Source: a virus. Taken from it: a stretch of DNA of 64,000 bases. This document shows, piece by piece, positions 4,727-63,080 of this stretch (position 1 is its first letter; every line of letters starts with the position of its first letter). The position numbers and the translations under genes were made by a program. The DNA lies in the IMG/VR virus record IMGVR_UViG_3300022562_000520, positions 36,294 through 100,293 of that record; one strand, 5' to 3'. The notes beneath the pieces are model-generated. The model was given only the letters and a program-made list of their open reading frames with translations. It did no database searches and was not told where the DNA came from.

Positions 4727-4753
4727 GGCTACACATTCTCCAATAGTTCCAAG

Positions 4754-4761
4754 TATTTATC
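4754..4761 (-). promoter_or_regulatory. Late promoter element GATAAATA
   Basis: On the minus strand GATAAATACT lies 27 nt before the GTG of the giant structural gene, in the gap after gp6. It matches the T4 late promoter core (TATAAATA) at 7 of 8 positions and shares the downstream CT with other copies in this window. This would give the giant gene its own late transcript besides read-through from gp6. Confidence 0.55.
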
Positions 4762-4787
4762 TGACTAACATTAGGCAAAAAAGCGCC

Positions 4788-7700
4788 TTATTGACGGATA
4801 TTTTCCGGTGTAAATGACTGAACAATTTCAATGTTCTGCGTAGATATATCAGGTACAAAGATTTCATTTTCACGGGATTGAACTTGAAACAAATCACCAA
4901 ACTGGTTTGTAGAAAAGGTTGGAACCAACACGATTGATTTTATTTCAGGACCAAGTGCGGCATGGATTGAAGCGGACAATTCGGTAAAAAAGAATGTACT
5001 ACCAAAATCCCAATCATCAATGTCAAAATAATCACGAATAACTTCAACGATTCTAACTTTAACTTCATTATCAGTTAAGTTACTGATTTCAGGGCGTATT
5101 ACTTTAAATGTAGCTTGTAATTCTGGAATTGCACGACTTCCAAAAAGTATTTTAAATAAACCAGTTTGTAATATTACCGTATCAGATATCATACGATTTT
5201 CAAGTAGGCTGTCATAGGCCGTTCTTAAATCTAATGGCGTTGGTGCATCTGGACTAATGTCAGTTTTATTTTCGAGCCAACGTGTAACACTTTCATAGTA
5301 GCCAGAAGTAATTATAAACATATCTATAATATTAGACGCAGCTGGATCTACTAAATGAAAACGCGGGGTTGTATAAAACCATGCAAAGTTCAAAGGATAT
5401 CTTCCATGTTCACGTCTATAAAGTCTATTGCGTTCAGAATTTAATAAATCAAGATACCATGCGGAACGAACAATAGCTGTATCCGTTACTGGAACCCATT
5501 CACTTGTTGAAGAATCGCGATTAAAATATACAAACTGCTTAGTACTAATTTGTATAGTCTGTCCTGCTGTAGTTCCATTTACGGTTAAATTTGTAAGTTC
5601 GGTACCTGTAACAGGTTCTATATTAGAAACGGTTCCATAAACAGTCGGGGAACCAAAATTCAATACCGGGGAACCACCAAAAGTTGGTAATAATTGGTCA
5701 TGTGATAGTGGATCATTATATTGACCTATCGGAATAGTTGTATATCCTGGTGAGCCGCCTGTATAAACTGCGCCCGTACCATCGTTTAAAACACTATACG
5801 TACCATTATAGTTACCATATGATGGATCTGTTGCACCATTTTGTATTCTTATTTTTGAACCTATTGGAAAATCTGCGGTAACATCACCTGATACTAAGAC
5901 AGTATCTGGCGCTGATGGTGAACCTGGCATTGGTGAACCAATAGGGTTATTAATAATATTAACATCAATTATATCAAAAACAGGGTATAATCCCCAAGTT
6001 CCTATTGTGGCAGACCCATTGTCATAGTCAAAAACAGTACCATCGACGCTTACCAATACACTATCTGCTTCTGTACCATTTATAAAATATTGTGATGGTT
6101 TTATGAAAGTTACAGAAGTATAATCGTCTGTAGCTGCAAAAGTATCTGTAGAATATAATAATTCTAACTGGTCAATTTGATCTGGAATACCGTCATCATT
6201 AGTATCTGTTGGTATAACAAACAATCTACTATCATCTGGAACTCCAGCATTTGGAAGATTTTGAGCTACTAATTCTTGACCTAAAACGTTGTAAATTTTA
6301 TTTTCAGTTAATACTGCATCCAAATTTCCATTTAAATTGGCGCGTAATATAACAATATTATCGTCATTAGAAGTTAATGTATTAAAGTTTATTACGCTTG
6401 ACGTATTAGCATTTCTAAATTTAGTGCTAACGCTTTGCGCATTCATACGTTTAACTTGCCAACGTACTGTCCATCCTGATAAATTGCTTGCTGTAAATTG
6501 CGCTTCAATTCTTATCATAAGACTTGAAGAAAATGGCAAGCCAGTTGATGGATTTATAGTTGTATTTGGTCCAACCGTCCAGTGTGGTATTTCAACGGTT
6601 GGGCTTCCAACAGCAGTTTGTGATTTAAAGTATAAATCTACCTGTGGGTTTGCTGACGTTGCTGCACTATTGAGTGCCGTTTCTATAAATGGTCTTTCTA
6701 AATCAATATCAAAAGTACAAGGTATTTGCCCAAGAATATTATAAAAATCACCACTACATAATAATGGTTCTACAAGATTGGTTATTACTTCATCCGCAGT
6801 TAATGCTAAATTTGAAATAGCAACGCCACCATTATTAATATCGTCTTCTACCCAAAATAATGCTAAATCTTCACCGAAAATTTTAACATCTTCATAGTAT
6901 TCTTTAGGATCGTGCCACGCTATATACTTAGAATCACCAGCAAACGTTCTATTAACTGCTTGTAATTTCAATATAGAGGGGTCTTGTAACATAAAAGAAT
7001 TATAGTCACGGCCATTAACCATTCTATCCTGTGTATAATAAACAGATGGTGCAACCCTACGAATATGTTCAATATCTTCAGAAACCGAAGCATTTTGTAA
7101 AGAATTTATTAATGAGAATGTAAACTTAAAAGTCTGTGTAGTATTTGTTAGGTCAAGATATGTAAATGATGCCGTTTGATCTACAACAGATGATTTTTGT
7201 ATAATACTATTACTGTTCGCAGAAATTCTGTACCAAATATCAAATTCACCAGAAGGTATATCTGAGAATTCCCCGTCACCAAAAATTAATCGTACTTGGT
7301 CATTATCTAATGTTTCAATTTCATATTTTTGACGATTTTTATCTGTATTAAAAATTATATTTTGCGCATTCGCCAAATCAACTTCGGTCCATTCACCATA
7401 TCTACCAATACCGTCTTCTAAGTGTGGCAATATATCTGCATATGGATTAGTTTCTACGATAACACGTGTACTTGGATCTACATTATTGAGCCAAACATCA
7501 GTTTCATTAATATTGCTAACTAAAATATCGTGGGTTTGGTTTGGGGTAACACCATCGAAAGATTGGGTTACTAATTGTAATGTTCCTTGTTTTGTAAAGC
7601 AGAAAAATCCTGTGGTATCTGAACCATCACCCAAACCATCTGAACCGTACAAAATTGAAAATTTGGCGTTTCTTTCGGGACGTTTTTCTACAGGCGAAGT

Positions 7701-8357
7701 TGATGTCAATGTAACAGGTACCAACTCCATTGGGAATGCTGTACCTGATGATGTTGCAGAATAGTTAAATGTTGAAACTCCACTACCCTTTAACGGTTGA
7801 TTGTTCCAAGTATATAACTCAAACAATACGTCTTCTATCTGTACACGTTCATTCGGTGAAACGGTTCCAAAATCTTGTTCTAAAACACGATTCAATACAA
7901 GTAAAAATTGTTCTTTCCAATCTGGATTATTTAAATCGTTCCAAACTATTTTGGTGTTAGCTAAATTTCTACCTTGCGAATCATTAACTTGTTCTGTAGT
8001 TTGAATAGATGTTATTTTAACTAAACCACGCGCAGCAATATTTCTTGATACTTTATAAGATATTAATTTTGCAAGACGAAGGATGGATTCTTTACGTTCA
8101 GCAGTACTGATAAAGTTTTCGTGGGCATTTAAATCAAGTCTGTAAGAAATGATTTCACCAACGTATGCAAATATTTCAAGGATTGCTATAAATTCACTTG
8201 ATTCAATATAATCGTTAAAATCTTCAGGAAAGTAAAGTTTTACATAATCTAAAAGACTTTCTTTGATTGTATTATAATCGAACGCCGAAAAGTTAACACG
8301 GGTAAATACCTCGTGTGCGCGTGTCCAAGCCTCCGCTCTAGATATTTCTATAGCCAT
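4788..8357 (-). CDS. 6: Baseplate wedge protein gp6
   Basis: This 1189-residue protein is a baseplate wedge subunit of the gp6/J-like family. The N-terminus (AIEISRAEAWTRAHEVFT, then LLDYVKLYFPEDFNDYIES and YVGEIISYRLDLNAHENF) is the typical gp6 opening, and the C-terminal part (VRIVEVIRDYFDIDDWDFGSTFF) is the conserved core. It is much longer than T4 gp6 (about 660 residues). The extra length lies in a central beta-rich region containing six Gly-Ser-Pro tripeptides. I start at the ATG at 8357, preceded by GAGG at 7 nt; four upstream codons from a TTG are less likely. The start lies 1 nt past the gp25 stop, so the two are probably coupled. gp6 dimers link wedges into a ring around the hub in T4. 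Confidence 0.9.
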   Translation of the reverse strand: MAIEISRAEAWTRAHEVFTRVNFSAFDYNTIKESLLDYVKLYFPEDFNDYIESSEFIAILEIFAYVGEIISYRLDLNAHENFISTAERKESILRLAKLISYKVSRNIAARGLVKITSIQTTEQVNDSQGRNLANTKIVWNDLNNPDWKEQFLLVLNRVLEQDFGTVSPNERVQIEDVLFELYTWNNQPLKGSGVSTFNYSATSSGTAFPMELVPVTLTSTSPVEKRPERNAKFSILYGSDGLGDGSDTTGFFCFTKQGTLQLVTQSFDGVTPNQTHDILVSNINETDVWLNNVDPSTRVIVETNPYADILPHLEDGIGRYGEWTEVDLANAQNIIFNTDKNRQKYEIETLDNDQVRLIFGDGEFSDIPSGEFDIWYRISANSNSIIQKSSVVDQTASFTYLDLTNTTQTFKFTFSLINSLQNASVSEDIEHIRRVAPSVYYTQDRMVNGRDYNSFMLQDPSILKLQAVNRTFAGDSKYIAWHDPKEYYEDVKIFGEDLALFWVEDDINNGGVAISNLALTADEVITNLVEPLLCSGDFYNILGQIPCTFDIDLERPFIETALNSAATSANPQVDLYFKSQTAVGSPTVEIPHWTVGPNTTINPSTGLPFSSSLMIRIEAQFTASNLSGWTVRWQVKRMNAQSVSTKFRNANTSSVINFNTLTSNDDNIVILRANLNGNLDAVLTENKIYNVLGQELVAQNLPNAGVPDDSRLFVIPTDTNDDGIPDQIDQLELLYSTDTFAATDDYTSVTFIKPSQYFINGTEADSVLVSVDGTVFDYDNGSATIGTWGLYPVFDIIDVNIINNPIGSPMPGSPSAPDTVLVSGDVTADFPIGSKIRIQNGATDPSYGNYNGTYSVLNDGTGAVYTGGSPGYTTIPIGQYNDPLSHDQLLPTFGGSPVLNFGSPTVYGTVSNIEPVTGTELTNLTVNGTTAGQTIQISTKQFVYFNRDSSTSEWVPVTDTAIVRSAWYLDLLNSERNRLYRREHGRYPLNFAWFYTTPRFHLVDPAASNIIDMFIITSGYYESVTRWLENKTDISPDAPTPLDLRTAYDSLLENRMISDTVILQTGLFKILFGSRAIPELQATFKVIRPEISNLTDNEVKVRIVEVIRDYFDIDDWDFGSTFFFTELSASIHAALGPEIKSIVLVPTFSTNQFGDLFQVQSRENEIFVPDISTQNIEIVQSFTPENIRQ

Positions 8358-8358
8358 A

Positions 8359-8736
8359 TTAATCCTCAAATTGGATGTTTAATTCAAAATCATCCACCTT
8401 ATTTAATTCTATATAAAACAATGTTGCATTAACATACAACGAGTTAGTATCAAAATCTGGTGTTACAGACATGTTTACCAGATTTATTCTTGGGTCATAG
8501 TCGAAAATAGCCAAAAGTTCAGCATATACTTCATCCACCAAATCTTCATCTAATGGTTCAAACGCTAATTCAGGTATAATACTTCCAAATTCTGGCATCA
8601 TCACACGCGTACCTTTCACTGTAAATATATGATTTAACAGATCCATTTTCACCAGTTCAACATCACGAAGTCTTAAAGACTTGTTTTTTTGAAACTCGAA
8701 TGAGGAATATCCCCTGTAAAGATTAGTGCGTGCCAT
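8359..8736 (-). CDS. 25: Baseplate wedge protein gp25
   Basis: This 125-residue protein is the small wedge subunit gp25, a homologue of the lysozyme-like GpW/gp25 family that initiates sheath assembly. The conserved NHIFTVKGTRVMMPEFGS segment and the EYAELLAIFDYDPRINL-like second half carry the Glu-Pro-Arg-type core; here the motif reads YDPRINLVNM. The ATG at 8736 has GGGA upstream; a TTG five codons earlier is less likely. It sits directly before gp6, as in other T4-like phages, and has its own late promoter element. Confidence 0.92.
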   Translation of the reverse strand: MARTNLYRGYSSFEFQKNKSLRLRDVELVKMDLLNHIFTVKGTRVMMPEFGSIIPELAFEPLDEDLVDEVYAELLAIFDYDPRINLVNMSVTPDFDTNSLYVNATLFYIELNKVDDFELNIQFED

Positions 8737-31051: not shown

Positions 31052-32515
31052 ATGAATGAACTTTTCGAAAATTGGTCAGAAACTAAAGCAGCATTGCTTG
31101 AAGGTCTTTCCGCACAAAAACAAAAGGTTGTAGCACCTTTGCTTGAAAACCAGAAGCAGCAAATGATTGCTGAATCTGCGGCAGCAGGCTCTACACAAGC
31201 ACACGACATTGCTGGATTTCGTAAAATCTTAATCCCAATGATCCGTCGTATCATTCCAGGCACAATTGCTACAGAACTTGTTGGTGTACAGCCAATGACT
31301 GGTCCAGTTGGTCTGGTTTACACGTTGCGTTATCGTTACGCAGAAGCTGTTGCTAATACTACACACGCTAACCCATTTGGTCTTCCAGGCGCAATTGCGG
31401 TAGATGATGAAGTATTTGGTAATAGTTCACCAATTCGTCAATGGTATTCTGGCGCTGCTGGTCCTAACACAGGCTCACCAGAAGTTGCTGGTCCAGCTGC
31501 TGATCAACCAGCGGGTGCAGGTGCTATTGATAATGCTGATACTACAACAACAGGTATCACTGGACTTAACGCTGATGGTCATGCATGGCCTTCAAGCCTT
31601 GGCGCATCTGCTGGTAACACTGGTTACACAAACGCACTTGGTCAAGTAGTTGCAGGTTCTGTTTGGGGTGGTTCTGGTAGCTTCATCGAAGGTTCTGGTG
31701 GTCGTAAGATGACTATGGACGTTGTAAGTCAGTCTGTTGAAGCTGGAAGCCGTAAGCTCCAAGCTGGATGGACAATCGAAGCTATGCAAGATCTTAATGC
31801 ACAGCACGGTCTTGATCTTGAATCAGAAATGACACAGGCTTTGTCTGCTGAAATCGTTCAGGAAATTGACCAAGAAATCATCACTGATCTTCTTGCACTT
31901 GCAGGTACTGTTGACACGTTTGACGGTGCTGGTACTGGTGTATATGGTTTCAGTGCTGGTAACTACGCGCCTGCTTATGTAGGTGACCGTCTTGCTAACC
32001 TTGGTGTTATCATCAATCGTGTAGCAAACGAAATTGCACGTAAAACACGTCGTGGTGCTGGTAACTTCATCGTTGTTTCACCTCTTATCGTTTCTATTCT
32101 TCAGTCTGCTGCTAAGTCAGTCTTCGCACCAGCTGTTGATGGTAGCTTTAAAGGTCCAAACAACACAATGATGGTTGGTACACTTAACGGTACAATTAAG
32201 GTTTATAGCTATCTTTGGAACCAAGCAGGTGCTGGTCTTGATCTCGGTGGAGCTACTTCACCAATGGGTCAAGCTTCAGATACAATCCTTGTTGGTTATA
32301 AAGGCGGAAATGGAGAAACTGATACTGGTTACTTCTACTGCCCATACATTCCATTGATGTCATCTGGTGTTGTTGTTAACCCAACTACATTCCAGCCAGT
32401 TGTAAGTCTTATGACACGTTACGGTAAAGCCGTATTCACTACAACACAAACATCTCTTGGTAACAGCGCTGACTACTACGGTAAGATCAACGTTGCTAAC
32501 CTTGACCTTGCTTAA
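31052..32515 (+). CDS. 23: Major capsid protein gp23
   Basis: A 487-residue HK97-fold capsid protein. Conserved segments: FRKILIPMIRRIIPGTIATE, LVGVQPMTGPVGLVYTL, VANEIARKTRRGAGNFIVVS and YKGGNGETDTGYFYCPYIPL. QQMIAE followed by SAAAG (cut after E41) is a likely gp21 maturation site, giving a 41-residue propeptide (65 in T4). Residues about 95-215 are a Gly/Ala/Thr-rich insertion that probably forms the surface domain. GAGGAG precedes the ATG and a strong terminator follows, as expected of the most abundant protein. Confidence 0.95.
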   Translation: MNELFENWSETKAALLEGLSAQKQKVVAPLLENQKQQMIAESAAAGSTQAHDIAGFRKILIPMIRRIIPGTIATELVGVQPMTGPVGLVYTLRYRYAEAVANTTHANPFGLPGAIAVDDEVFGNSSPIRQWYSGAAGPNTGSPEVAGPAADQPAGAGAIDNADTTTTGITGLNADGHAWPSSLGASAGNTGYTNALGQVVAGSVWGGSGSFIEGSGGRKMTMDVVSQSVEAGSRKLQAGWTIEAMQDLNAQHGLDLESEMTQALSAEIVQEIDQEIITDLLALAGTVDTFDGAGTGVYGFSAGNYAPAYVGDRLANLGVIINRVANEIARKTRRGAGNFIVVSPLIVSILQSAAKSVFAPAVDGSFKGPNNTMMVGTLNGTIKVYSYLWNQAGAGLDLGGATSPMGQASDTILVGYKGGNGETDTGYFYCPYIPLMSSGVVVNPTTFQPVVSLMTRYGKAVFTTTQTSLGNSADYYGKINVANLDLA

Positions 32516-43976: not shown

Positions 43977-44416
43977 GCACCGAAACAAAAGAAGTAGAAG
44001 TAATTGTCGATCATCCACTTGAAGATATATTTGATATTGAACCTGGTACTACATTAATCCCACGTACTGAAAAGAGCACCGAACTTGTTGTGGCCGAAGA
44101 ATATGATGATAAAGATAAAGAAATAGAAGACCAATTTCAACAAATTTATGACGCAGCACTGGCCGCATTTGAAGATCAGCTTGCAGAAAGTGAAGTTATA
44201 GAAGGTAAATATAAAGCACGAAATATGGAAGTTGGCGTCCAACTTTTAAATACTGCATTAACTGCCGCCAAAGAAAAATCTAATATGAAACAACATAAAG
44301 ATAAGACCGCCGTTGATAAAGGTAAACTTAAAGGAAAAACGGTCAACCATAATAATTTAATAATAGCTGACCGTAATGATATTTTAAAAACATTAGCTGG
44401 AAAAACAGAAGATTAA
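43973..44416 (+). CDS. 16: Terminase small subunit gp16
   Basis: A 147-residue protein (T4 gp16 is 164). The helical region AALAAFEDQLAESEVIEGKY, then KARNMEVGVQLLNTALTAAK is the family core that forms the ring regulating gp17. It overlaps gp4 by 4 nt. Its stop codon shares a TTAA with the stop of the opposing gene. gp17 lies beyond that inverted gene, which is unusual because the two subunits normally adjoin. Confidence 0.85.
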   Translation: MSTETKEVEVIVDHPLEDIFDIEPGTTLIPRTEKSTELVVAEEYDDKDKEIEDQFQQIYDAALAAFEDQLAESEVIEGKYKARNMEVGVQLLNTALTAAKEKSNMKQHKDKTAVDKGKLKGKTVNHNNLIIADRNDILKTLAGKTED

Positions 44417-45708
44417 CGTTCCATTATTTCTTTCATAGTTGCTTCAAAAGAATCCTCTTTTATATTTTCTTCTATTTCTTTGATTATTTCTTCTTCGCCT
44501 TTAATAAATTTTATCGTTTCTAAATCATAAACAGGAAAGTTTTCAAACGTAATTTCAGTATAATAATTTGAAGGTTCGCGTCGAATCATAGTAGTAGAAC
44601 CATCTTCAGAAGTTTCTTCTGTTATTTTTCTAGTTTCAACTTTCCCATATCGTGTTATAAAAGAAATAAGAGGTTTAAATGTATCAGGGTCTACAACTTC
44701 GTTGCCCATTGCTACTACATATGGACAATAAAAAAATCCAGTGTCAGTTTCACCATGTCTACCTTTATAACCCATTATAGCTTTATTACTTTTAAGGGTA
44801 TAATCACAATATATGTCAATTACATTATGAAGCGTACCAACATAATTTAAATAACCATAGTCTCGGCATGTTTTTAGTGGATCTATTTTAAAGATAGTTT
44901 TAGCTTCTGAAAGTATTTTAGCAAGAATTTCTGATACTATTAAAAAGTTACCACTACCGCGTCGTGTTTTTCTCGCAATTTCATTTGCACAATAGTTAAA
45001 ATTAATGATAAGAGTTTGTATTTCATTTTGTGTAATTTCATTTTCATTTTTAAAAATTTTACTAGCATCTATATCTTCTTTAGCCGCTAATGCCGATAAA
45101 TCCTGTCTAACTTCTTCATATACTTCTTGTGCTAATTCACGACCGCAACGAAGACATGTTTCTTCAGATATTAAACCTGTAGGTTCGGGAACGATTTTTA
45201 TATTTGTTTTTCTTGAACACGCTTCAACAGTACGACTAACCACTTCCATACTTATCTTACGTTCATCAGAATCTTCTTCTTTATATCCCAGTGAATATAT
45301 TAATCCGACAGGTCCAGCCATTGGTTGAATACCAACCAAGTGTTTAATTGCCAATTGATCTACAAAATGCTCTGTAATAGATAATAACGCTTTTTTGCGT
45401 GGTTCATTACCATATACATGATATGTTGAAGCTGAAACATATTTTTCCATATTTTCTAGGAGTGCTTCCTTGATTACATCTTTTTTAACAGGAGGATTTA
45501 AGTAATCCTTTATCATACTAACAACCGTGCCAACTAAATCTTCGCGTTGTTCCATGTAAGAGGTAAGAATTTCAGGATCTTCATTTTTACATTCTTCTAT
45601 AATATCATCATATATCCTGTTAATTTTATCTACGATTTCTTCATGTTCCATCCCACGAAACTCTTCCTTGGGTGTACTTACTAATCTACGCATATACATA
45701 TCGCTCAT
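44413..45708 (-). CDS. Diverged gp23 paralogue, gp24-like vertex candidate
   Basis: A 431-residue protein clearly related to gp23 of this phage: LVGIQPMAGPVGLIYSL, ISMEVVSRTVEACSRK, ANEIARKTRRGSGNFLIVS and YKGRHGETDTGFFYCPY all have direct counterparts. The large Gly/Ala-rich surface insertion of gp23 is missing: LGYKEEDSDERK joins the flanks directly. T4 gp24, the pentamer at the vertices and a gp23 paralogue, is 427 residues. The gene is alone on the minus strand between gp16 and gp17, with AGGAG and its own late element. The vertex role is inferred. Confidence 0.75.
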   Translation of the reverse strand: MSDMYMRRLVSTPKEEFRGMEHEEIVDKINRIYDDIIEECKNEDPEILTSYMEQREDLVGTVVSMIKDYLNPPVKKDVIKEALLENMEKYVSASTYHVYGNEPRKKALLSITEHFVDQLAIKHLVGIQPMAGPVGLIYSLGYKEEDSDERKISMEVVSRTVEACSRKTNIKIVPEPTGLISEETCLRCGRELAQEVYEEVRQDLSALAAKEDIDASKIFKNENEITQNEIQTLIINFNYCANEIARKTRRGSGNFLIVSEILAKILSEAKTIFKIDPLKTCRDYGYLNYVGTLHNVIDIYCDYTLKSNKAIMGYKGRHGETDTGFFYCPYVVAMGNEVVDPDTFKPLISFITRYGKVETRKITEETSEDGSTTMIRREPSNYYTEITFENFPVYDLETIKFIKGEEEIIKEIEENIKEDSFEATMKEIMER

Positions 45709-51372: not shown

Positions 51373-52038
51373 TTATGGTGAACCAGTACAAACTGGTTGA
51401 CCGTCAGTAGCCGAAGATGGTTTACGTTCACAAACAGAATCTGTACTAAGATTGCCGTACTGGTCATATAGTTGAAAGACTCGCAGAGGGGTCGTACAAT
51501 CGTCATCGTACACGGTTAATGTTTTGTTAATATCATCAATTTTTGTTCTATTAGTATCAAATTTAAGAATTATATCGACTATATTTTGTACAGCGGCAAC
51601 ATCAAGAAAAAGTTGTGTAGTATCAGCTTTGATTTGATTTAATGCCAATCCCGTTGTATTTGAAAGTAAATGTTCTGTTCTGTCTTCATCCCAAACACTT
51701 GGATTAATTTCTGCGGTTTGATATCTATCAGTATCTGGTAGCGATGTCCCGCCATCGGTTCTAATTACGTATTTCTTAGTAGGATCATAACCTATTAGGT
51801 CTGTAAATAGGAAAGTATAAAATCCGTCTTTTCCAGCAGGCGAACCCCCATCATCCATTTCTGTCATTATACCATCGGCGGCTTGCCCTGTTCCGGCTGG
51901 TGCCCCCACGATTAGGGTTTGTATAGCACCATTGACTTCCCAGATTCTAACCTTTGGATAACCCGGGGTAGCAGTTGCAATATTGATTGCGGGTAATCCT
52001 GCATTGGAAAAAAGGCTATTAATCTCAATCTGCGCCAT
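51373..52038 (-). CDS. Putative virion structural protein
   Basis: A 221-residue protein, ATG with ACGGAG upstream and an exact late element before it. The N-terminal half is beta-rich (YPKVRIWEVNGAIQTLIVG, FYTFLFTDLIGYDPTKKYVI); the C-terminal half contains a helix resembling a trimeric coiled coil (LNQIKADTTQLFLDVAAVQN) and a final VYDDDCTTPLRVFQLYDQYG strand pair. This plan suits a small fibre or decoration protein. Not recognised as a named family. Confidence 0.6.
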   Translation of the reverse strand: MAQIEINSLFSNAGLPAINIATATPGYPKVRIWEVNGAIQTLIVGAPAGTGQAADGIMTEMDDGGSPAGKDGFYTFLFTDLIGYDPTKKYVIRTDGGTSLPDTDRYQTAEINPSVWDEDRTEHLLSNTTGLALNQIKADTTQLFLDVAAVQNIVDIILKFDTNRTKIDDINKTLTVYDDDCTTPLRVFQLYDQYGNLSTDSVCERKPSSATDGQPVCTGSP

Positions 52039-52070
52039 TCGGCTGTACTCCGTATATTAAGTATATCATC

Positions 52071-52078
52071 TATTTATA
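52071..52078 (-). promoter_or_regulatory. Late promoter element TATAAATA, leftward
   Basis: Exact core on the minus strand, 32 nt before the ATG at 52038. It drives the three-gene leftward unit. Confidence 0.7.
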
Positions 52079-52104
52079 AAAATAGAAATCTGAGTGTTTG
52101 GAAA

Positions 52105-52112
52105 GATAAATA
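52105..52112 (+). promoter_or_regulatory. Late promoter element GATAAATA, rightward
   Basis: 28 nt before the ATG at 52141 and divergent from the copy at 52071. The leader contains AAGG and an ATG at 52127 opening a 10-codon frame that overlaps the main start. Confidence 0.5.
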
Positions 52113-52140
52113 TAAAAAAGGTAATCATGGGACTAAAATC

Positions 52141-52380
52141 ATGGAAAATTTTTCATTAATCAAGAAATTAAACAAATCAGATGACAAAAAGCCGTCACCG
52201 ATGGCAGAAGGTATTAAATATCAACAATATGAATTGGAAGTAGACGGAAAAGTACAAGTAGTAAATATTCCTCTTAGAGAAACCGAATCGTTTGAAAAGA
52301 CTATAATAGAAACTGAAGAACCATTAACACGCAAATCACTGAAAAAGATCCTCAGAGAACATCGCGGCGTTAGACAATAA
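52141..52380 (+). CDS. Small unknown protein at start of the adhesion region
   Basis: A 79-residue protein. GIKYQQYELEVDGKVQVVNI suggests a short beta unit and RKSLKKILREHRGVR a basic C-terminal helix. GGGA lies 8 nt before the ATG. No family recognised. It is the first gene of the rightward fibre operon. Confidence 0.6.
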   Translation: MENFSLIKKLNKSDDKKPSPMAEGIKYQQYELEVDGKVQVVNIPLRETESFEKTIIETEEPLTRKSLKKILREHRGVRQ

Positions 52381-52394
52381 TAAAAGGATAAAAT

Positions 52395-52886
52395 ATGCCA
52401 TTGGTTTTAACTAGACCAGTTAGCGGCGGCAGTGGTACCGGCATACCTGGTATGTCAATTACTACTATCAATGGTCAACAAATATTAACTTTAGAAGATA
52501 CAACGCGCTCAAATAAGATTCTTTCGGTCGCAGAGGTTCCAGTTGTATATTCTGAAAATACATTAGATGATCTTGAATGGATTAATATAGGCAATGCCGC
52601 AGATGCTGATAGTAGCTATATTGCAAATTTCGATGGAACTATAGTCGCAGCTTGTGGACATTGTGAAAATGTTGGAAATAACGATAAAAACATAAATCTT
52701 TACATTAATACAACAGATATTGGCGCAATAGGTTCATTTTCCGGCGTTGGTGCAGACATTTTTATAAATAATACATTGAACATAGATTTCAATCAAGGTG
52801 ACACCATTCGCTTACGCGCTATGAATATTAATGTAGGAAAAATTCAAGATAGTGTCATAAAACTTACAATCAAATGGAGAGGATAA
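52395..52886 (+). CDS. Free-standing fibre tip domain
   Basis: A 163-residue protein whose residues about 22-163 are paralogous to the C-terminal 150 residues of the next gene: ITTINGQQILTLEDTTRSNK against VTTINGQEVLTLVDTTRANK, ILSV, and endings IKLTIKWRG and ITVWLKWRG. The first 20 residues are Gly-rich. It is therefore a fibre-tip module without a shaft. It may act as an extra tip, a chaperone or an alternative receptor-binding head. It abuts the next gene directly. Confidence 0.7.
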   Translation: MPLVLTRPVSGGSGTGIPGMSITTINGQQILTLEDTTRSNKILSVAEVPVVYSENTLDDLEWINIGNAADADSSYIANFDGTIVAACGHCENVGNNDKNINLYINTTDIGAIGSFSGVGADIFINNTLNIDFNQGDTIRLRAMNINVGKIQDSVIKLTIKWRG

Positions 52887-55814
52887 ATGAGTTTTATAAT
52901 TAAAAATACCTATTCTGGTAGCCCACTAATTGCAATTGCAATTGATGACTTAGGTCTTACCGTACCAGCAGGAGGAACGTATAATTTATTATTCGAGAAT
53001 CCTGGTGATGTACAAGCATCTGCACAATCTGGCGGTGATTTAAGTAATGCTATCAATGCTGGTAATATTGTAGTGGTAGACCCACGCGATGGCGTTACAG
53101 ACCTTTCTCTCGCAGATAGTCTTATAGTTGCAAGATCACATAACGATCCGCATTATGGTATAAGAGGCGCGAGAATGACAGACCTCGACGATGTTGTCGG
53201 GTCACCTGTTCCAGTTACAGGTCAAGTTCTTCAATTGAATGGTTCAAACCAATGGGTAAGTGTTCCACCAAGCACAGTTGCTGGCAGCATTTCTCTTGGC
53301 GATCTTTCTGATATTAATCCTGATACAGGTTCTCCATTCCGTCCTACTACATCATTCTTTATTTTAGAAGGTGATGGTGCAGGTGGACTTAATATAGTAG
53401 ATGGTACAACAGATACCACATTATTCATCCCATGGGTTGAAGATACTGCTGGTGCTATGGTTGCAGGTGGTACACAAACGAACCTTACCTTAACATATAA
53501 TACTGGTACAAACCAAATTGATGCATCTGTTAATGATGTTTACTTATTTAATACTGGTGATACATTAGATTCAGGTACATTAACAATCGCATCGGGCGCT
53601 TCAATTGTTGTAGCAACTGGCGCATCTATTTCATGGTCTGATGCTCCAACACAAGCAGCACATCTTGCTAATAAAGAATATGTTGATAGTGTCGCCGCAG
53701 GTCTTGACGTTCGCGAACCTGTTAAAATAGCTTCAACTACTAACATTACAGGTTACGCGCTTGGTTCACCCGAAGGCCCAGGTTTCTTTACAGGTGTAGA
53801 CCTTACAACTATGGATGGTGGCTATAGCCCTATCGCAGTTGGCGACCGTGTTCTTATTAAGAACCAAACAGATGCTAAACAAAATGGTATCTATGTTGTT
53901 CAAGGTACTGGCTCTCCATTAACACCAGCGGGTTCTCCAATTGGTTCAAGTGTAACACTTGTTCGTAGTGCAGCACTTTCTGGTTCGCCATCATCAGAAG
54001 TACACGCGGGTGTTTATACGTTTGTTGAAAACGGCTCATTATATGCTAAAACAGGTTGGATACTTCAAGGCTCTGGATTTTTAACAATTAATACAGATGA
54101 TCTTATTTGGGCGCAATTTTCCGCTGCAAATAACTATTCTGCTGGTATTGGTTTAGGATTGACTGGTAATCAGTTCTATCTTGATATTAATAACCTTACA
54201 GATACTGCTATTGCTACAACAGACTCAATAGCATTTAATGATTCTACTGATACTGTTACCAAAAAACGTACGATGGCCAACGTCATCACCGATTTAGGTA
54301 TCTATACTTCTGGTAATTTAACAGCATCTGACGGTGTTACATTTGTTGGTAGTGATATTCAATTAGATATTACTAACTTAACTGGTACAAACGTTATTAC
54401 ATCTGCTGATGAAATGGTATTTGATGATGGTGCCTCTGGTACACATATCAAACGTACAGTTTCTAACTTCTTAGCAGACTTAGACGTTGTTAATAGTTTA
54501 GGTGGTAATGGTTTTGCAGTTCAAACCGCTGCTGATACTTATACTGCTCGTACATTGACAGCTTCTTCAACTGCTAGTGAAGAAGGTATTATCATAACAA
54601 ATGGTGATGGTGTTGCCGCTAACCCAACTATTGGTATTGATATTGAAGGTACAACAGCTTCTGGCTCTAATATGGCCGCTACGGATGAATTCCTTGGTTT
54701 TAATGGAACTAACAACCGTGCATTTACAGGTCAACAGATTGCCGATGGTGTCTTTTCTATTTTAGGTGGTATCGGTAATGCTTATACTACAATCACTGGT
54801 GATACGGGTTCAGCAACCGCCGCATCTTCATCTGATACATTAAGATTTATTGGCGCTGCAAATGGTGGTATTCTTACAACTGTTGTAGATGGTGCACCAG
54901 ATACAGTATCTTTTGAAATAGATGTTTATGCATTGGCAAATGGTGCAAGTACAATTGCACTTACTGATAGAATTATTGTTGGTGAAGGTGGTTCACCATT
55001 AGGACCAACAGTAAGTTACACAGTTCAAGATTTGTTCGATGATGTAAAAGTTCCATATAATATAGGTACTAGTGCGGGTTTTGTTATTAGCACTGGTGCT
55101 AATGATTATTCAACAACCACACTTGCCGTCAATGGCGCAGGTGATAGAGATGGTCTTATCATAGTTAATGGCGCTTTAACAGGCTCACCATTTGATACTA
55201 CTGTTACTATTGGTTTAGATATTAATGGTAATGCTTCTGCTGGTGAAAATATTGCAGCTGGTGATAAGTTCCTTGGTTATAACCTTTCTGGAACTGCTAA
55301 CCAAGCATTCACTGGACAAGAAGTTGCAGATGGTGTTGCAACAATCTTAGGCTTTGGTGGCCTCGCTGTTACAACAATCAACGGACAAGAAGTTTTAACA
55401 CTTGTTGATACAACACGTGCTAACAAAATTCTTTCTGTCGGTGATACATCTGTTACATTCTCCGATAACCGTGTAGGTAATAATGATTGGTTACAAGTTG
55501 GTGCAGCTGTAGATGCGCTTAGTGGATATATTGTACCATTAAATGCAACTATTGTTAAAGTAACTGGACACACTTCAGATAACAACGGTCTTACAAAAAG
55601 TATCGATTTATACGTTGATGATGTTCTTAATAGTACTATTGGTACATTTAACGGTGCCGCAGGTTCACCACAGATTATAGGTCAGGATGAATTTAGAAAT
55701 GTAACGGTAAATGTTGACGTTAACCAAGACCAAAAAATCACATTACGTGGCGATGCGGGCGGTGGAACAATCGACGATACTGTTATAACAGTTTGGTTAA
55801 AATGGCGGGGATAA
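52887..55814 (+). CDS. Modular tail fibre protein
   Basis: A 975-residue fibre. Residues 1-130 are an attachment domain shared with the gene at 55818 (IDDLGLTVPAGGTYNL, HNDPHYGIRGARMTDLDDV). Near 255-285 is the common tail-fibre segment LANKEYVDSVAAGLDVREPV. From about 420 to 830 there are repeated beta units (EFLGFNGTNNRAFTGQQIAD and KFLGYNLSGTANQAFTGQEV). The last 150 residues are the tip module shared with 52395. Ten Gly-Ser-Pro tripeptides occur, mostly at apparent loop positions. Receptor binding is inferred. Confidence 0.8.
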   Translation: MSFIIKNTYSGSPLIAIAIDDLGLTVPAGGTYNLLFENPGDVQASAQSGGDLSNAINAGNIVVVDPRDGVTDLSLADSLIVARSHNDPHYGIRGARMTDLDDVVGSPVPVTGQVLQLNGSNQWVSVPPSTVAGSISLGDLSDINPDTGSPFRPTTSFFILEGDGAGGLNIVDGTTDTTLFIPWVEDTAGAMVAGGTQTNLTLTYNTGTNQIDASVNDVYLFNTGDTLDSGTLTIASGASIVVATGASISWSDAPTQAAHLANKEYVDSVAAGLDVREPVKIASTTNITGYALGSPEGPGFFTGVDLTTMDGGYSPIAVGDRVLIKNQTDAKQNGIYVVQGTGSPLTPAGSPIGSSVTLVRSAALSGSPSSEVHAGVYTFVENGSLYAKTGWILQGSGFLTINTDDLIWAQFSAANNYSAGIGLGLTGNQFYLDINNLTDTAIATTDSIAFNDSTDTVTKKRTMANVITDLGIYTSGNLTASDGVTFVGSDIQLDITNLTGTNVITSADEMVFDDGASGTHIKRTVSNFLADLDVVNSLGGNGFAVQTAADTYTARTLTASSTASEEGIIITNGDGVAANPTIGIDIEGTTASGSNMAATDEFLGFNGTNNRAFTGQQIADGVFSILGGIGNAYTTITGDTGSATAASSSDTLRFIGAANGGILTTVVDGAPDTVSFEIDVYALANGASTIALTDRIIVGEGGSPLGPTVSYTVQDLFDDVKVPYNIGTSAGFVISTGANDYSTTTLAVNGAGDRDGLIIVNGALTGSPFDTTVTIGLDINGNASAGENIAAGDKFLGYNLSGTANQAFTGQEVADGVATILGFGGLAVTTINGQEVLTLVDTTRANKILSVGDTSVTFSDNRVGNNDWLQVGAAVDALSGYIVPLNATIVKVTGHTSDNNGLTKSIDLYVDDVLNSTIGTFNGAAGSPQIIGQDEFRNVTVNVDVNQDQKITLRGDAGGGTIDDTVITVWLKWRG

Positions 55815-55817
55815 TGG

Positions 55818-56492
55818 ATGGCTTTTATAGTTCGTAATCTTACGGGCAGCACAGTAGAAATTAATGATCTTGGTTTATCGTTAGCTGCCCTTACGGATTA
55901 TGACCTAGCATATGATGAAAATCGTGATATAGCGGATAGTGATGATTTAATATCCGCTATAAATGCAGATACAGTTATCATACTTGACCCATTGGGTGGT
56001 TCCCCCACATTACCATTATCTAAAGCAGAAAGTATTAAATGCATTCTTTATGCAAATAATCCTCATTTTGGTATTGTTGGTGGAAAGCTTCGCCAAATAG
56101 ACGATGTAACCATTTCAGGCTCACCTGCTCTCCCCACTAACGATCAAGTTTTAATTTATAATACATCAACGTCCGTGTGGGAAAATCACGACGCTGCCCC
56201 ATCTGATAGATTTCAAAGTATTGCAACGATTTCAACGGATTATTCAAGTACTACAAATATAGTTGTTTTGGTTAATACTACAACAGCTGGTGTAACCATA
56301 ACGCTGCCTACCGCAGCTGCTTTTGCTAAAAAATTCTTTCATATTAAATGGATAGCTGGCCCATCTAAAAATAAAGTTACTATTATAACACAAACAGGCG
56401 AAACATTAGATGATCAAACAGAAGTTAAATTAGGTCAATTATATGATAGTTTAAATGTCGTAAGTGATGGTTCTAATTGGTGGATTATCTAA
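55818..56492 (+). CDS. Short fibre protein sharing the attachment domain
   Basis: A 224-residue protein. The first 120 residues are paralogous to the N-terminus of the preceding fibre (VRNLTGSTVEINDLGLSLAA, ANNPHFGIVGGKLRQIDDVT). The C-terminal part (TTAGVTITLPTAAAFAKKFF, then YDSLNVVSDGSNWWII) is a compact beta end common in phage fibres. It may compete for or share the same virion site as the 975-residue fibre. Starts 3 nt after the upstream stop. Confidence 0.7.
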   Translation: MAFIVRNLTGSTVEINDLGLSLAALTDYDLAYDENRDIADSDDLISAINADTVIILDPLGGSPTLPLSKAESIKCILYANNPHFGIVGGKLRQIDDVTISGSPALPTNDQVLIYNTSTSVWENHDAAPSDRFQSIATISTDYSSTTNIVVLVNTTTAGVTITLPTAAAFAKKFFHIKWIAGPSKNKVTIITQTGETLDDQTEVKLGQLYDSLNVVSDGSNWWII

Positions 56493-56534
56493 ACAACAGA
56501 TATATACTATAGATAATAAAAATAAGGTTGAATT

Positions 56535-56795
56535 ATGAGCCATACAGTAAATCCAGTAGTAAAAGATAGAGATATTGCCAAATCTGGCAAATTTAAAACT
56601 GACACGTCAGAACCAGAAGCTACCAATGGCATTTTAATACATGGTGTATGTGATGATAATCAAATACATCCAGTATTAGTTAAAGCAACAACACGTGAAA
56701 TGGGTGTTATAGATGAAATGGTTTTTAATGAACTCAAATCTTTAAATAAAAAAATTGAAGAAGTTATATTTCTTTTAAAAGCAATTGCAGAATAA
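56535..56795 (+). CDS. Small unknown protein
   Basis: An 86-residue protein. A polar beta part (ATNGILIHGVCDDNQIHPVL) is followed by a C-terminal amphipathic helix (LKSLNKKIEEVIFLLKAIAE) that could form a coiled coil. AAGG lies upstream. It precedes the four paralogous adhesion genes. Confidence 0.6.
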   Translation: MSHTVNPVVKDRDIAKSGKFKTDTSEPEATNGILIHGVCDDNQIHPVLVKATTREMGVIDEMVFNELKSLNKKIEEVIFLLKAIAE

Positions 56796-56808
56796 TAGGA
56801 GTTAAAAA

Positions 56809-57465
56809 ATGTCAGGTGAAACAGTTTTAATTAGCGCCGGAGCTAAAAGAAATAGAGCACTAGTAACAGAAGACGGTCAAGTAAAAACATATTCGGCTGT
56901 AGAATCAGAATTTGCAAGTCGCTCGGAAGAGCATAGACAATCATATGAATTCCATCCACATGGATTTGATCTCATTGCTGATAAATGGAATGCTGTATAT
57001 TATATGAAAAATACATCTTCCGATAAAAACTTTCATATTGAATATGTTAGAATGGGAACATCTGGTGGTTATACAACATACACTAAACCAATGCAATTTA
57101 GAATGTATGCTGAAATGACGGCACCAGATACGAATGTTATAACAGGTCAATTTGGTGTAAGTGCAGGCTCTCATAATTTATATATTGGTTCAGAAATTAA
57201 TCCTGAAATGGAAATCATCTTTTTTGATAATTTAGGCTCACCATTAACAGGTGATGGTATGACTATTGGCGGTGTTGCAATGACATCAACACAGCTTGGA
57301 AGTTTATTTAATTGTGGACCACTTGGTGTAGGTTCAACATATTTAACATATGGTGGAGCATTAATACTTCCACCTAGTAGAAGTCTTGGTATTACATTGA
57401 AACCCTTTGTTGAAGATACAAAAGGATTTGCTGTTGTGGCAGGTTATTTTAAGGACGTAGAATAA
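56809..57465 (+). CDS. Adhesion-region paralogue 1
   Basis: A 218-residue beta-rich protein. KRNRALVTEDGQVKTYS near the N-terminus and YYMKNTSSDKNFHIEYVRMG in the middle recur in the next genes. AGGAG precedes the ATG. The family is not one I can name. Probably part of the baseplate or fibre tip, judged from position. Confidence 0.65.
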   Translation: MSGETVLISAGAKRNRALVTEDGQVKTYSAVESEFASRSEEHRQSYEFHPHGFDLIADKWNAVYYMKNTSSDKNFHIEYVRMGTSGGYTTYTKPMQFRMYAEMTAPDTNVITGQFGVSAGSHNLYIGSEINPEMEIIFFDNLGSPLTGDGMTIGGVAMTSTQLGSLFNCGPLGVGSTYLTYGGALILPPSRSLGITLKPFVEDTKGFAVVAGYFKDVE

Positions 57466-57477
57466 AGGAGTAAAACA

Positions 57478-58056
57478 ATGGAATTTCAATTATTTGGTGC
57501 AACTGTACAATCTTACGGAATGGGTGTTAACTCAGAAGGACGTGGTTTAGTAGAATCTGTTGAAATAACAAACTTAACAAACGCCGCTAGAAAAGGTAAA
57601 GCGTTTCTGTTAACTTCCGATTTTATATCTTTAACACCGGGAAGTCCACTAATACATAACGGAATCATATTTCTTAAAAATACTTCTGATACGGAAATAA
57701 TGAAAATAGATAGGATTCGTACATGTGGAACACAAACTAATAGATGGCGAATGATAAAGAACCCCTCTACTGGAACATTAATAAGTTCAGGCTCTAGTAT
57801 AAGTTTTAATAATACTAATTTTACTTCAGGTATTGTTGCACCAGCAACTGCGAAAGTAGGTTCAAATGGTTCTACAGTAACAGACGGCACGTTGATAGGA
57901 CAATGGATAAATGGTACAGGACATTCATTAGAAGAATATAGAGGTGGTATTCAATTAGGTACTAATGACTGTATAGCTTTAACATGTTATGTCGAAGCAG
58001 CCGCTTCGGTATGTGCTAACTTATTAATGTTTTTTGATACAGATAATGGTGTTTAA
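57478..58056 (+). CDS. Adhesion-region paralogue 2
   Basis: A 192-residue protein related to the previous one: IFLKNTSDTEIMKIDRIRTC aligns with its YYMKNTSSDKNFHIEYVRMG, and GMGVNSEGRGLVESVEI with its RALVTEDGQV segment. AAAGGAG precedes the ATG. Ends in a hydrophobic beta strand pair (VCANLLMFFDTDNGV). Confidence 0.65.
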   Translation: MEFQLFGATVQSYGMGVNSEGRGLVESVEITNLTNAARKGKAFLLTSDFISLTPGSPLIHNGIIFLKNTSDTEIMKIDRIRTCGTQTNRWRMIKNPSTGTLISSGSSISFNNTNFTSGIVAPATAKVGSNGSTVTDGTLIGQWINGTGHSLEEYRGGIQLGTNDCIALTCYVEAAASVCANLLMFFDTDNGV

Positions 58057-58706
58057 TGGCTGTAAAATCCTATATTATAGATCCTTTTAAAAAATATAGA
58101 GCAAGGGTTACGAAAGAAGGAGCAGTATTAACACAAACTGCCAATACAGTAACTGTTGCACCCGAACCTGGAACAGAAAATCAACAACGATACTTTGAAG
58201 GTGAACTTGGATCGACAGGAATCGATTCTGGTTCATTATCACAAAATGTAGATGGATCTACTACACCACAAACATTTTATTTGGAAGCAAATGCAGATTA
58301 TGATATCCATATAATACAGATAACGGCAGTAGTAGTTGATGGTGCAGTTTCACATTCAAAATTTGGTGCAATAGCAGCATTAACAAATGGATGGGATTTG
58401 GTTTGGACTGAAGCCGGTGAAAATAATTATCTTATAGATAGTGCAAAAACAACTGGTCAGGCACTTGTCCAATCTGGTATTGGTACTCCATTCGGCTCAG
58501 GTAATGCATTCTCAATAATTTCTGCATTTAGTGGAAATGATGATGCTGTTATCATATCATTACCGTTGGGTAGATTTGTACCAGGTGGTGTTAGAATTGG
58601 TAGGGGCACTACAGATAGATTAAAAAGTGTTGTAAACGACAATCTGACAGCATTAACAGATTTTAAAGTCTACGTTTACGGATACAAGAACTTACCACAG
58701 GAATAA
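58056..58706 (+). CDS. Adhesion-region paralogue 3
   Basis: A 216-residue protein starting in the stop codon of the previous gene (TAATG). YRARVTKEGAVLTQ matches RNRALVTEDGQVKT of paralogue 1, and FYLEANADYDIHIIQITAVV matches the central segment. C-terminal strands FKVYVYGYKNL close it. Confidence 0.65.
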   Translation: MAVKSYIIDPFKKYRARVTKEGAVLTQTANTVTVAPEPGTENQQRYFEGELGSTGIDSGSLSQNVDGSTTPQTFYLEANADYDIHIIQITAVVVDGAVSHSKFGAIAALTNGWDLVWTEAGENNYLIDSAKTTGQALVQSGIGTPFGSGNAFSIISAFSGNDDAVIISLPLGRFVPGGVRIGRGTTDRLKSVVNDNLTALTDFKVYVYGYKNLPQE

Positions 58707-58709
58707 TAT

Positions 58710-59198
58710 ATGGCACATCAAGGTACTACAGATAGAACACCAGATGGCCGCATGAAAGTTTATGCGACATCAAAACCACACGATACATCAACGTATTTTA
58801 CGGGCGCTGGTGATAATGTTGGTATAGGTGACGGTGAACGATTGTTGTTTCATTTAACAGCATTAGATGCGTATAAATCCGTTGATATAACTTTTATTTC
58901 AGATATATGGATTAAAGATGGTTTTATGATAGTTGATAATGCACCATTTGGTGCATATCTTAATATCGAGGTTGTAATGCCTGGCTCGCCAGAAATAATT
59001 CTTGGTTCATTTGGATATAGTGTTCCAATTTTTGGTTCAGGGTGGTTTCCCATGAATACAGAAGATTGTGCTTTAATCCCAGCTGGTATAATCATGCGTA
59101 TAACAGTTTATAATTCGGATGATACAGATCCAGCACAAGATGCGCCAGCAGAATTTCGTGTAGCAGGTAGATTGGAAATGTTTAGGACCGATACTTAA
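58710..59198 (+). CDS. Adhesion-region paralogue 4
   Basis: A 162-residue protein, shorter at the N-terminus (TDRTPDGRMKVYATSKPHDT) but with LFHLTALDAYKSVDITFISD in the position of the shared central segment. Its end (AEFRVAGRLEMFRTDT) is a typical closing strand. Lies 3 nt after the previous stop; its own stop overlaps the next start. Confidence 0.6.
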   Translation: MAHQGTTDRTPDGRMKVYATSKPHDTSTYFTGAGDNVGIGDGERLLFHLTALDAYKSVDITFISDIWIKDGFMIVDNAPFGAYLNIEVVMPGSPEIILGSFGYSVPIFGSGWFPMNTEDCALIPAGIIMRITVYNSDDTDPAQDAPAEFRVAGRLEMFRTDT

Positions 59199-60509: not shown

Positions 60510-63080
60510 ATGAAAATAAGCTTCCGCCAAGGTATAGTCAGTCATCAAACTGGCGCTTTTTTGCAGTTATCTGGCAATTCAGTAAATATTTTAGCGCAAA
60601 ACCGCCCAGTTGTAATTACGCTCGCGCATAAGAATACAAATTATACCTATTCCGAAGATCAGTCTGTTGTTGCTGCATGGACAGTACCACTTACTGCGAC
60701 ACGCTATTGGTTATATTGGGATTTTAATAAATTAACTTTCCAGCGTACATTTGGATATACTACTCTCGAACCCGTTGCACAATCCGCTGTTCCCGGCTCT
60801 GGAAACGCCGTTATACTAGGTGTCACTCCAGGTACTGCTGGTGTTGGTAGTTTCCTTGTAAACAAATATTATAATCTTGCTATTGGAAGAACATTTGCTG
60901 TTATCAATTCTACAGGGAATGATGGAACTTATACTGTTAAGTCTATCGATTATAATACATCTACTGGTAAGACTACAATCGGTGTTGAAGAAAATGTAGC
61001 ATCATCTGTTGTAGATGGTGAAGCAACGCTTGATATAGATTCACAGGGAATTCCACTTTATACAACAGGTCGTCATTGGTTCAATACGATAACAAATGAA
61101 CACTTTGTATTAAGCGGTAGTTCATGGCTACCAGTATTGCGTGTATTTTCCGCACTTTTATATAATGGTACAACACTTATTAGTATGAGTCAAAATGCAC
61201 CATCTAGTAATTTTATCGGTACCCAAATCGGTAATAACAATACAGTATCTGCTGGCCGCGTTTTATTTGATGAAGCATCACAACCTGTCCGTAGAGATGA
61301 TGGAACATTTTTTACAACTGAAGATCAATTTTTCGCAAATCAATCACAAGTTAATGCGATTCGTTTAGAATCGAATGTTATTCGTGCACAGTGTGTTCCT
61401 TCCGCACTATCCAAGTTTTCCGTTGTTGCATGGAAAGCAGACGGTAAGATATCCGACGCTAAGTATGATGATGTAGAAAATACTATTGTTGGTATTTTAA
61501 CGGAAGATTTAGTTAGTTATCAAATCGGCGCGGTGGTAGTACAAGGTTCTATAACTAATCCTGATTGGGATTGGCTTTCTGAAACTACAATAGGTGGAAA
61601 ATTATGGGTTAAAAATGGGCAACTTGTTTCCGTAGATCCTCATGAATCTGATCCAATAAATTATCCATATATTCGCGTTCCTATTGCGCGAGTATTAAGT
61701 ACTGATACTGTTATTTTTGAACAAGGTCTTGGTGGTGTTGGACCACCTGGACCATCTGGTGCCGCAGGTGGTATTATACCAGCAACAACTACAGATCTTG
61801 GCGGATGTACACTTGTAACACCATCTACTAACCCACTTCGTTCTTATGTTATAAGTGACACCGATCCTAGATTGACAGATGCTCGAACACCATTATCACA
61901 TACACATCAAGCATCAAGTATCACATTTCAACCAGATGGTGGCGTAGTAGCGACAGACATTCAAGCGGCCATAGCAGAATTAGGTAATGGAAAATTAAAT
62001 AAGAGCGGTGGTACGATGACTGGTGCATTAATATTATCCGCCGATCCTACTATATCACTACATCCAGCCACTAAACAATATGTAGATAATTTAGTTATAG
62101 GTCTTACATGGATTGATCCTATTAAACACGTTAACTTAATATCAAATACTCTTACAACCCCACCGGGAACACCATATTTTTCTGACATATACATTCCAGC
62201 AACAGGCTCAACGGGTGCTTGGTCTGGCTTAGATGGACACGTATTACAATATGATGGTTCCTCATGGATAGACCTTGGTTTACTTTCTGCATATTCTACA
62301 GGTTCTAGATTTGGTATAGCCATGGAAACAACATCAACACCATCTGGTAGCTTTTCAGGAAAAGCAGATTACATTGCTGTGTTGGATAATCCAGCAACAG
62401 CATCGTGGTCATTTATAGCCCCAGTAAATAATACTGCGGTATATGTTAATAATGCTACTTCTTTACATGCCTATCATCAATACGTTTATAATAATATTCA
62501 ATGGGTAGAATTTAGTGGTACACAATCGTTGGGTGCCTCTAGCATTAAAGATCTTGGCGACGTATATTCTTCCATGGTACCTACCAATGGACAAGTATTA
62601 ACGTATAATACAACAAATGGCTGGCAATCAGAAACGTTTGTCATAGATATTGTCAATGATACAACTCCTCAATTGGGTGGTAATTTAGATCTTAATGGTA
62701 ATAGTATTCTTTGTGCTGATAATATAGTAGAAAGACCATTAATTAAAGACTATGCTATTAGTCATTCAACGTTATCAAGCACCGCAGGTGCTGTTACTAT
62801 TGATTGTTCAGTAAGTAACTCTTTTGCTATAACATTAACTGAAAATATTACTAGTATATCTATCGTAAATCCACCAGCTAGTGGTAGATATGGTCAACTT
62901 CGTATTCGTATTACTCAAGGCGCAGGTGCATATACAGTTACATGGCCAGCTTCGGTAAAATGGCCAGGCGCAACTGCTCCAGTAATATCAATAGCAGCAG
63001 GCGCAATTGATTTGATAATATTAGAAACTGATGACGCGGGTACTAACTACTTTGGTAACTTTAATCAAGGATATGCATAA
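60510..63080 (+). CDS. Large tail fibre protein
   Basis: An 856-residue fibre. Residues 1-75 form a compact N-terminal domain (QGIVSHQTGAFLQLSGNSVN) followed by a unit with HWFNTITNEHFVLSGSSW, similar to the neck repeats. A collagen-like GVGPPGPSGAAGG lies near 410, then DPRLTDARTPLSHTHQ and LHPATKQYVDNLVIGLTWID, both standard in phage tail fibres. The C-terminal 150 residues are beta-rich with a Trp-rich end (YTVTWPASVKWPG). It is probably the long or side fibre. Confidence 0.8.
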   Translation: MKISFRQGIVSHQTGAFLQLSGNSVNILAQNRPVVITLAHKNTNYTYSEDQSVVAAWTVPLTATRYWLYWDFNKLTFQRTFGYTTLEPVAQSAVPGSGNAVILGVTPGTAGVGSFLVNKYYNLAIGRTFAVINSTGNDGTYTVKSIDYNTSTGKTTIGVEENVASSVVDGEATLDIDSQGIPLYTTGRHWFNTITNEHFVLSGSSWLPVLRVFSALLYNGTTLISMSQNAPSSNFIGTQIGNNNTVSAGRVLFDEASQPVRRDDGTFFTTEDQFFANQSQVNAIRLESNVIRAQCVPSALSKFSVVAWKADGKISDAKYDDVENTIVGILTEDLVSYQIGAVVVQGSITNPDWDWLSETTIGGKLWVKNGQLVSVDPHESDPINYPYIRVPIARVLSTDTVIFEQGLGGVGPPGPSGAAGGIIPATTTDLGGCTLVTPSTNPLRSYVISDTDPRLTDARTPLSHTHQASSITFQPDGGVVATDIQAAIAELGNGKLNKSGGTMTGALILSADPTISLHPATKQYVDNLVIGLTWIDPIKHVNLISNTLTTPPGTPYFSDIYIPATGSTGAWSGLDGHVLQYDGSSWIDLGLLSAYSTGSRFGIAMETTSTPSGSFSGKADYIAVLDNPATASWSFIAPVNNTAVYVNNATSLHAYHQYVYNNIQWVEFSGTQSLGASSIKDLGDVYSSMVPTNGQVLTYNTTNGWQSETFVIDIVNDTTPQLGGNLDLNGNSILCADNIVERPLIKDYAISHSTLSSTAGAVTIDCSVSNSFAITLTENITSISIVNPPASGRYGQLRIRITQGAGAYTVTWPASVKWPGATAPVISIAAGAIDLIILETDDAGTNYFGNFNQGYA

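Follow-up and report, generated by a model that had tools for sequence, protein, structure and literature searches.

A three-gene tail-fibre cassette of an uncultured, probably giant T4-like phage, whose products are probably joined end to end by a recurring pair of terminal modules

Gene content and setting of the cassette

The window, a stretch of 64,000 nucleotides, covers bases 36294-100293 of the viral record IMGVR_UViG_3300022562_000520, which has 100,293 bases in total. T4-like markers were recognized by Pfam (Gp23, 5e-96; Portal_T4, 6e-91; Terminase_6N, 2e-14; contractile sheath, 4e-15). With a gp23-type capsid protein, a gp20-type portal, a T4-type terminase and a contractile sheath, the phage is, by its gene content, a T4-like (gp23/gp20) myophage, uncultured and probably giant. 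An uncultured relative with an 86% identical capsid protein has 363,531 bases; the record itself, with only 100,293 bases, is possibly partial. Judged by the major capsid protein (62%), the closest relative in culture is the T4-like jumbo phage XacN1 of Xanthomonas (AP018399). A second, diverged gp23-like protein of 431 aa (window 44416-45708, minus strand; 35% to the capsid protein) is present in most relatives and is possibly a vertex protein. The cassette lies in a fibre island between two conserved flanking genes. The features are:

51373..52038, minus strand: left flank of the fibre island, conserved, 221 aa, with orthologues in place in contigs G005, G012, L278, L281, L282 and L269
52395..52886, plus strand: gene 1, 163 aa, short N-terminal peptide MPLVLTRPVSGG (the recurring ..VL.RP.. 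peptide) followed by the module TIP1
52887..55814, plus strand: gene 2, 975 aa, module HEAD1 (1-125), shaft (~120-820) and module TIP2 (~820-975), a layout also present in eight other contigs
52887..53261, plus strand: HEAD1 of gene 2, with its core at about residues 1-80
55350..55811, plus strand: TIP2 of gene 2, ending exactly at the C-terminus
55818..56492, plus strand: gene 3, 224 aa, module HEAD2 (1-125) followed by a distal part (122-224) that is variable between contigs
60510..63080, plus strand: right flank of the fibre island, conserved, 856 aa, matching PHROGs of tail-fibre C-terminal families

As the initial annotation had stated, the three genes are contiguous; the gaps are of 0 and 3 bases. 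Its claim that the fibre of gene 2 has its C-terminal tip in common with the free-standing upstream gene is borne out (43% over 155 aa, E 1e-34), as is the claim that its N-terminal module recurs in the downstream gene (38% over 125 aa, E 1e-16). The significance of these shared segments had been set beforehand as one of the points on which the claim would stand or fall, and both matches are far beyond chance. None of the three proteins matched a Pfam family at E below 0.1, and their PHROG matches are weak, one of them being to a proximal tail fibre (E 1e-4, gene 3 residues 107-195). The N-terminal ..VL.RP.. peptide of gene 1 recurs in eight other contigs (L290 has Q for R). A 79-aa gene (window 52141-52380) adjoins the cassette upstream and is kept with it in G005, L278, L281 and L282 (33-76%); it is also present in G002 (73%), in which no TIP or HEAD was found.

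The TIP and HEAD modules and their junctions

The contigs compared were mostly fragments, with ORFs called mechanically, and loci were fetched from both sides, by TIP (HEAD then being found downstream) and by HEAD (TIP then being found upstream). HEAD begins the gene after TIP in 32 of 36 same-strand pairs (236 pairs, 20 contigs; hypergeometric p 1e-31), a count that leaves out L290, where a TIP gene has no fitting same-strand downstream gene and no HEAD was found in the 76.6-kb contig. In three of the four exceptions a single ORF stands between the two, followed by HEAD; the intervening ORF of L309 starts, by eye, like a zinc-finger or homing-endonuclease protein. The final TIP of L306 has no HEAD in its vicinity. 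The end of TIP lies within 0-2 aa of the C-terminus in 35 of 37 cases, and HEAD starts at residue 1-5 in 33 of 35. The HEADs of L272 and L275 were missed by the first profile and spotted by eye, and a second profile gave E 5e-3 and 6e-6 for them. L275 has a protein of 216 aa that is little more than HEAD joined to TIP, and the adjacency rule holds for it too. A gene with TIP directly fused to the following HEAD was not found among the loci examined. The distances among TIPs and among their downstream HEADs correlate (r 0.64, p 0.0002, 25 junctions). However, within one joint type the TIP distances track non-cognate HEADs equally to cognate ones (r 0.41-0.43), so that the overall correlation may reflect only joint class and common descent. 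No TIP relatives were detected in 84,980 bacterial and archaeal genomes with two peptide patterns, and TIP was not found in cultured phages.

The AF2 model of TIP (pLDDT 90) is all-beta with 11 strands. Foldseek matched it to C1q domains, Bacillus ExsFA and BxpB, Ena appendage subunits and phage knobs, the C1q, ExsFA and BxpB matches at E 2e-4 to 1e-3 and the best matches at modest TM-scores (0.33-0.47). TIP is accordingly predicted to be a C1q/TNF-like beta jelly roll, a fold that usually forms trimers. Residues 1-80 of HEAD are well predicted (block pLDDT 86-98) as a small alpha/beta domain beginning at residue 1, with no significant match among solved PDB folds. Neither module matched a PDB sequence at E below 0.6.

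Taken together, genome architecture and fold prediction suggest that the cassette probably encodes one tail fibre built end to end, the products being linked by a recurring pair of docking modules. TIP of one protein would be the socket, and HEAD of the next, encoded directly downstream, the plug. The chain, from virion to tip, would run from the short anchor peptide with TIP1, through HEAD1, shaft and TIP2, to HEAD2 and the distal part, gene 1 being proposed as a virion-proximal adaptor that bears the first joint. Distinct joint types would set the order of the subunits, and the proximal and distal parts beyond the joints would be replaceable. The fibre proteins are presumed to be trimeric and present in the virion.

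The initial annotation had spoken of a C-terminal tip and an N-terminal attachment domain; the strict adjacency of TIP and HEAD suggests that they are partners of one joint. An unlikely alternative, close to the view of the initial annotation, has TIP as a receptor-binding (trimerising) fibre head and HEAD as the virion attachment of independent fibres, the cassette having arisen by tandem duplication of a HEAD-shaft-TIP gene of which the first copy lost its front and the last its end. C1q-like jelly rolls also act as receptor-binding fibre heads, the fold being common there, and HEAD-shaft-TIP genes do exist. However, independent fibres do not predict that TIP is followed by HEAD in loci without any HEAD-shaft-TIP gene, as in L274, L276 and L170, nor the second pair of L278 and L279, in which TIP terminates a protein that lacks HEAD and is once more followed by HEAD. 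They also fail to predict the co-occurrence of the modules across genomes: of 24 records, both are present in nine, TIP alone in one, the HEAD core alone in none and neither module in 14 (p 8e-6; weak matches in G013, G014 and W03 concern only the linker behind HEAD and are left out of this count). The adjacency rule and the co-occurrence are best read as a joint between consecutive subunits rather than as a receptor tip and a virion-attachment head. Less likely again, the downstream HEAD product could act on the upstream TIP as a chaperone of assembly or as a cap that can be removed, comparable to the tail-fibre assembly proteins encoded beside fibres; the expected adjacency is identical and a short HEAD protein such as that of gene 3 could serve as a cap, but HEAD also fronts long fibres, of 216 to 1,187 aa with a TIP of their own and of up to 1,499 aa without. 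Chaperones of the Tfa/gp38 type are small downstream proteins without a shaft of their own, whereas HEAD proteins are often long fibres. It is very improbable that the adjacency merely records the fission of an ancestral long fibre gene at the TIP-HEAD boundary with no interaction left, since the order and orientation do match a split protein but the pair recurs beside unrelated partner sequences on both sides and several times per genome, and both modules are kept at the boundary, which is unexpected without function.

The same three genes stand in the same order in G005 (93 kb, capsid protein 81%), and with the loci added by searches with the TIP and HEAD alignments the TIP / HEAD-shaft-TIP / HEAD layout is present in nine contigs (the window, G005, L278, L279, L281, L282, L269, L270 and L273). 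The tip copies group by position, free copies with free copies (64%) and fibre copies with fibre copies (71%), against 45-50% within a genome; 24 columns of the tip alignment have the orthologue pattern and 4 the paralogue pattern, and the nearest neighbour is of the same joint type for 17 of 18 tips and all 18 heads. Because the copies cluster by position and not by genome, the duplication predates the divergence of these phages, and no swap between the copies has followed. At the DNA level the likeness is weak (tips at best 74% over 72 bases, heads nothing significant), and the shared modules were therefore duplicated long ago. The grouping and the weak DNA likeness rule out that one tip was recently copied from the other or converted by it, and the same goes for the heads. 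Joint 1 and joint 2 are thus, as far as the alignments go, old and distinct orthologous types without exchange between them.

Outside the joints the picture differs. By BLAST, the distal part of the window's gene 3 matches none of the distal parts in the other eight contigs, although HEAD2 is alignable. In most contigs gene 1 consists of TIP behind a short peptide, but in L279, L270 and L273 the part in front of TIP is longer; among these three front parts, relatedness is confined to the pair L270 and L273 and to a stretch of 44 residues in the pair L273 and L279. These comparisons show that the parts beyond the joints, proximal in gene 1 and distal in gene 3, get replaced. Module exchange by recombination, as first envisaged, is therefore upheld in part: the genes are modular with homologous ends, and parts of the outer genes vary between relatives, but the position-wise grouping argues that the two ends are not interchangeable inside the cassette. 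Across the nine contigs the three-gene order is fixed, and exchange is seen outside the joints only.

The GSP tripeptide in virion-type proteins

The tripeptide GSP occurs 75 times in the 100-kb record against 6.7 copies expected from the composition of each protein, while the five permuted tripeptides average 6.4 and so lie at background, which rules out a low-complexity or compositional origin. Gene 2 carries 10 copies and gene 3 carries 2. The 14 of 90 proteins that have GSP are nearly all virion or virion-like, several of them judged by context only, and include fibres, the baseplate wedge, a giant tail protein and the capsid protein (one copy); they lie at window 1-8369, 31052-32515 and 51373-59198 and in L003/L004 (the rest of the record). 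A 1,946-aa protein of another contig (L278:8533-14370) has 29 GSP copies and a C-terminal TIP, with HEAD next. The coding 9-mers are in phase 0 in 75 of 76 cases and the Gly and Pro codons are at genome background, so selection acts on the protein; the 9-mers are identical at no more than 2 of 25 conserved sites. Random insertion of a single DNA element is ruled out by phase, codon use and the few identical 9-mers.

Compared with GSP-poor relatives, 18 of 35 alignable GSPs (51%) lie at a net insertion of at least 2 residues; the corresponding shares are 9% for positions overall and 14% for loop-like tripeptides (Fisher p 2e-10). Between the phage of the window and the GSP-rich G002, identity is 74% for G, 78% for S and 83% for P, and 21-29% for the two residues on each side; the conservation peak is weaker (60-74%) in comparison with G028. 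In an alignment of nine fibres, three lineages (the window, L278 and L282) have additional loop residues that contain GSP, part of them common to several lineages and part confined to one.

Seven contigs show an enrichment of GSP and eleven others do not. GSP is present in the major capsid protein of 7 of 7 rich and 0 of 11 poor contigs (p 3e-5, an optimistic value as the contigs are related). In the contigs first compared, capsid GSP was confined to the GSP-rich ones, and a forecast made from this for new genomes held: capsid GSP is present in G028 and G029, which have GSP-rich fibre regions, though not at the positions it occupies in the phage of the window, and absent in G030, G031, G023, G027 and G036, of which G023, G027 and G036 were classed as GSP-poor from fibre regions only and G023, G027, G030 and G036 have distant capsid proteins. 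The genome-wide excess is 12.8x in G028 and 4.7x in G029, with none in the examined parts of G030 and G031. The capsid GSP of the window (31472-31480, residues 141-143) lies in a hypervariable loop of the gp23-like protein, the same loop as in GSP-rich phages; in other phages the capsid GSP is in a second loop near residue 395-429.

As a candidate reader of GSP, a phage family-2 glycosyltransferase was not found in the GSP-rich contigs, many of them fragments, and a 2OG-Fe(II) oxygenase (L003:9537-10157, weak PHROG match, E 8e-4) was set aside because it occurs in GSP-rich and GSP-poor contigs alike. The literature searched held nothing on point about a Gly-Ser-Pro phage motif. Tentatively, and with somewhat less than even confidence, GSP is read as a tripeptide that functions throughout the virion, Ser or Pro most likely being the residue recognized or modified. 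Small insertions, recurring in the surface loops of fibre, baseplate and capsid proteins, would add copies in certain jumbo lineages, which would then retain them as the surrounding loop drifts; this would be a new kind of virion marking. GSP may, alternatively, reflect a structural preference for such a turn in a particular host environment.

Significance and comparison with known systems

If the end-to-end model is true, the order and partners within long fibre clusters of uncultured jumbo phages could be deduced from the DNA, by pairing C-terminal with N-terminal modules, in the way that docking domains set the order of polyketide synthases. Of greater weight may be the GSP tag, a single tripeptide that is strongly selected in the virion proteins of certain lineages and missing from close relatives, a pattern that would point to virion-wide recognition or modification.

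Neither TIP nor HEAD was found in XacN1, which has no GSP excess either (19 copies against 23 expected). Many of its proteins (L253-L255, L260-L262) have long mucin-like Thr/Pro-rich stretches, with TPT at 323 copies against about 43. The TPT excess was considered as a counterpart of GSP and rejected, the long stretches being a different thing.

BxpB of Bacillus spores is reported to hold the N-terminal domain of the BclA filament trimer (PMC10470788). It is of interest because the proposed joint would work in this manner: BxpB/ExsFA, among the closest PDB folds of TIP, is a C1q/TNF-like jelly-roll trimer that takes the N-terminus of the next filament. However, it has no sequence relation to TIP, the fold likeness is modest (TM 0.37-0.48), and the system is not of phage origin.

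The long tail fibre of T4 is a chain of gp34, gp35, gp36 and gp37 (PMC5537660). It resembles the arrangement proposed here from the genes in that several gene products are joined end to end from proximal to distal. It differs in that here one homologous pair of C- and N-terminal modules recurs at successive joints, whereas the joints of the T4 fibre are not known to be homologous repeats.

In CBA120, G7C, phiKp24 and RaK2, branched receptor-binding complexes are assembled with T4 gp10-like docking domains (PMC10253068, PMC9700779). For HEAD, no Pfam family, gp10-like PHROG, PDB sequence or significant fold match was found that would make it a T4 gp10-like (XD) domain. The likeness is that dedicated docking domains order several fibre proteins. 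However, the gp10-like systems dock through N-terminal domains and branch, whereas a C-terminal socket and the N-terminal plug of the next gene, as proposed here, would give a line.
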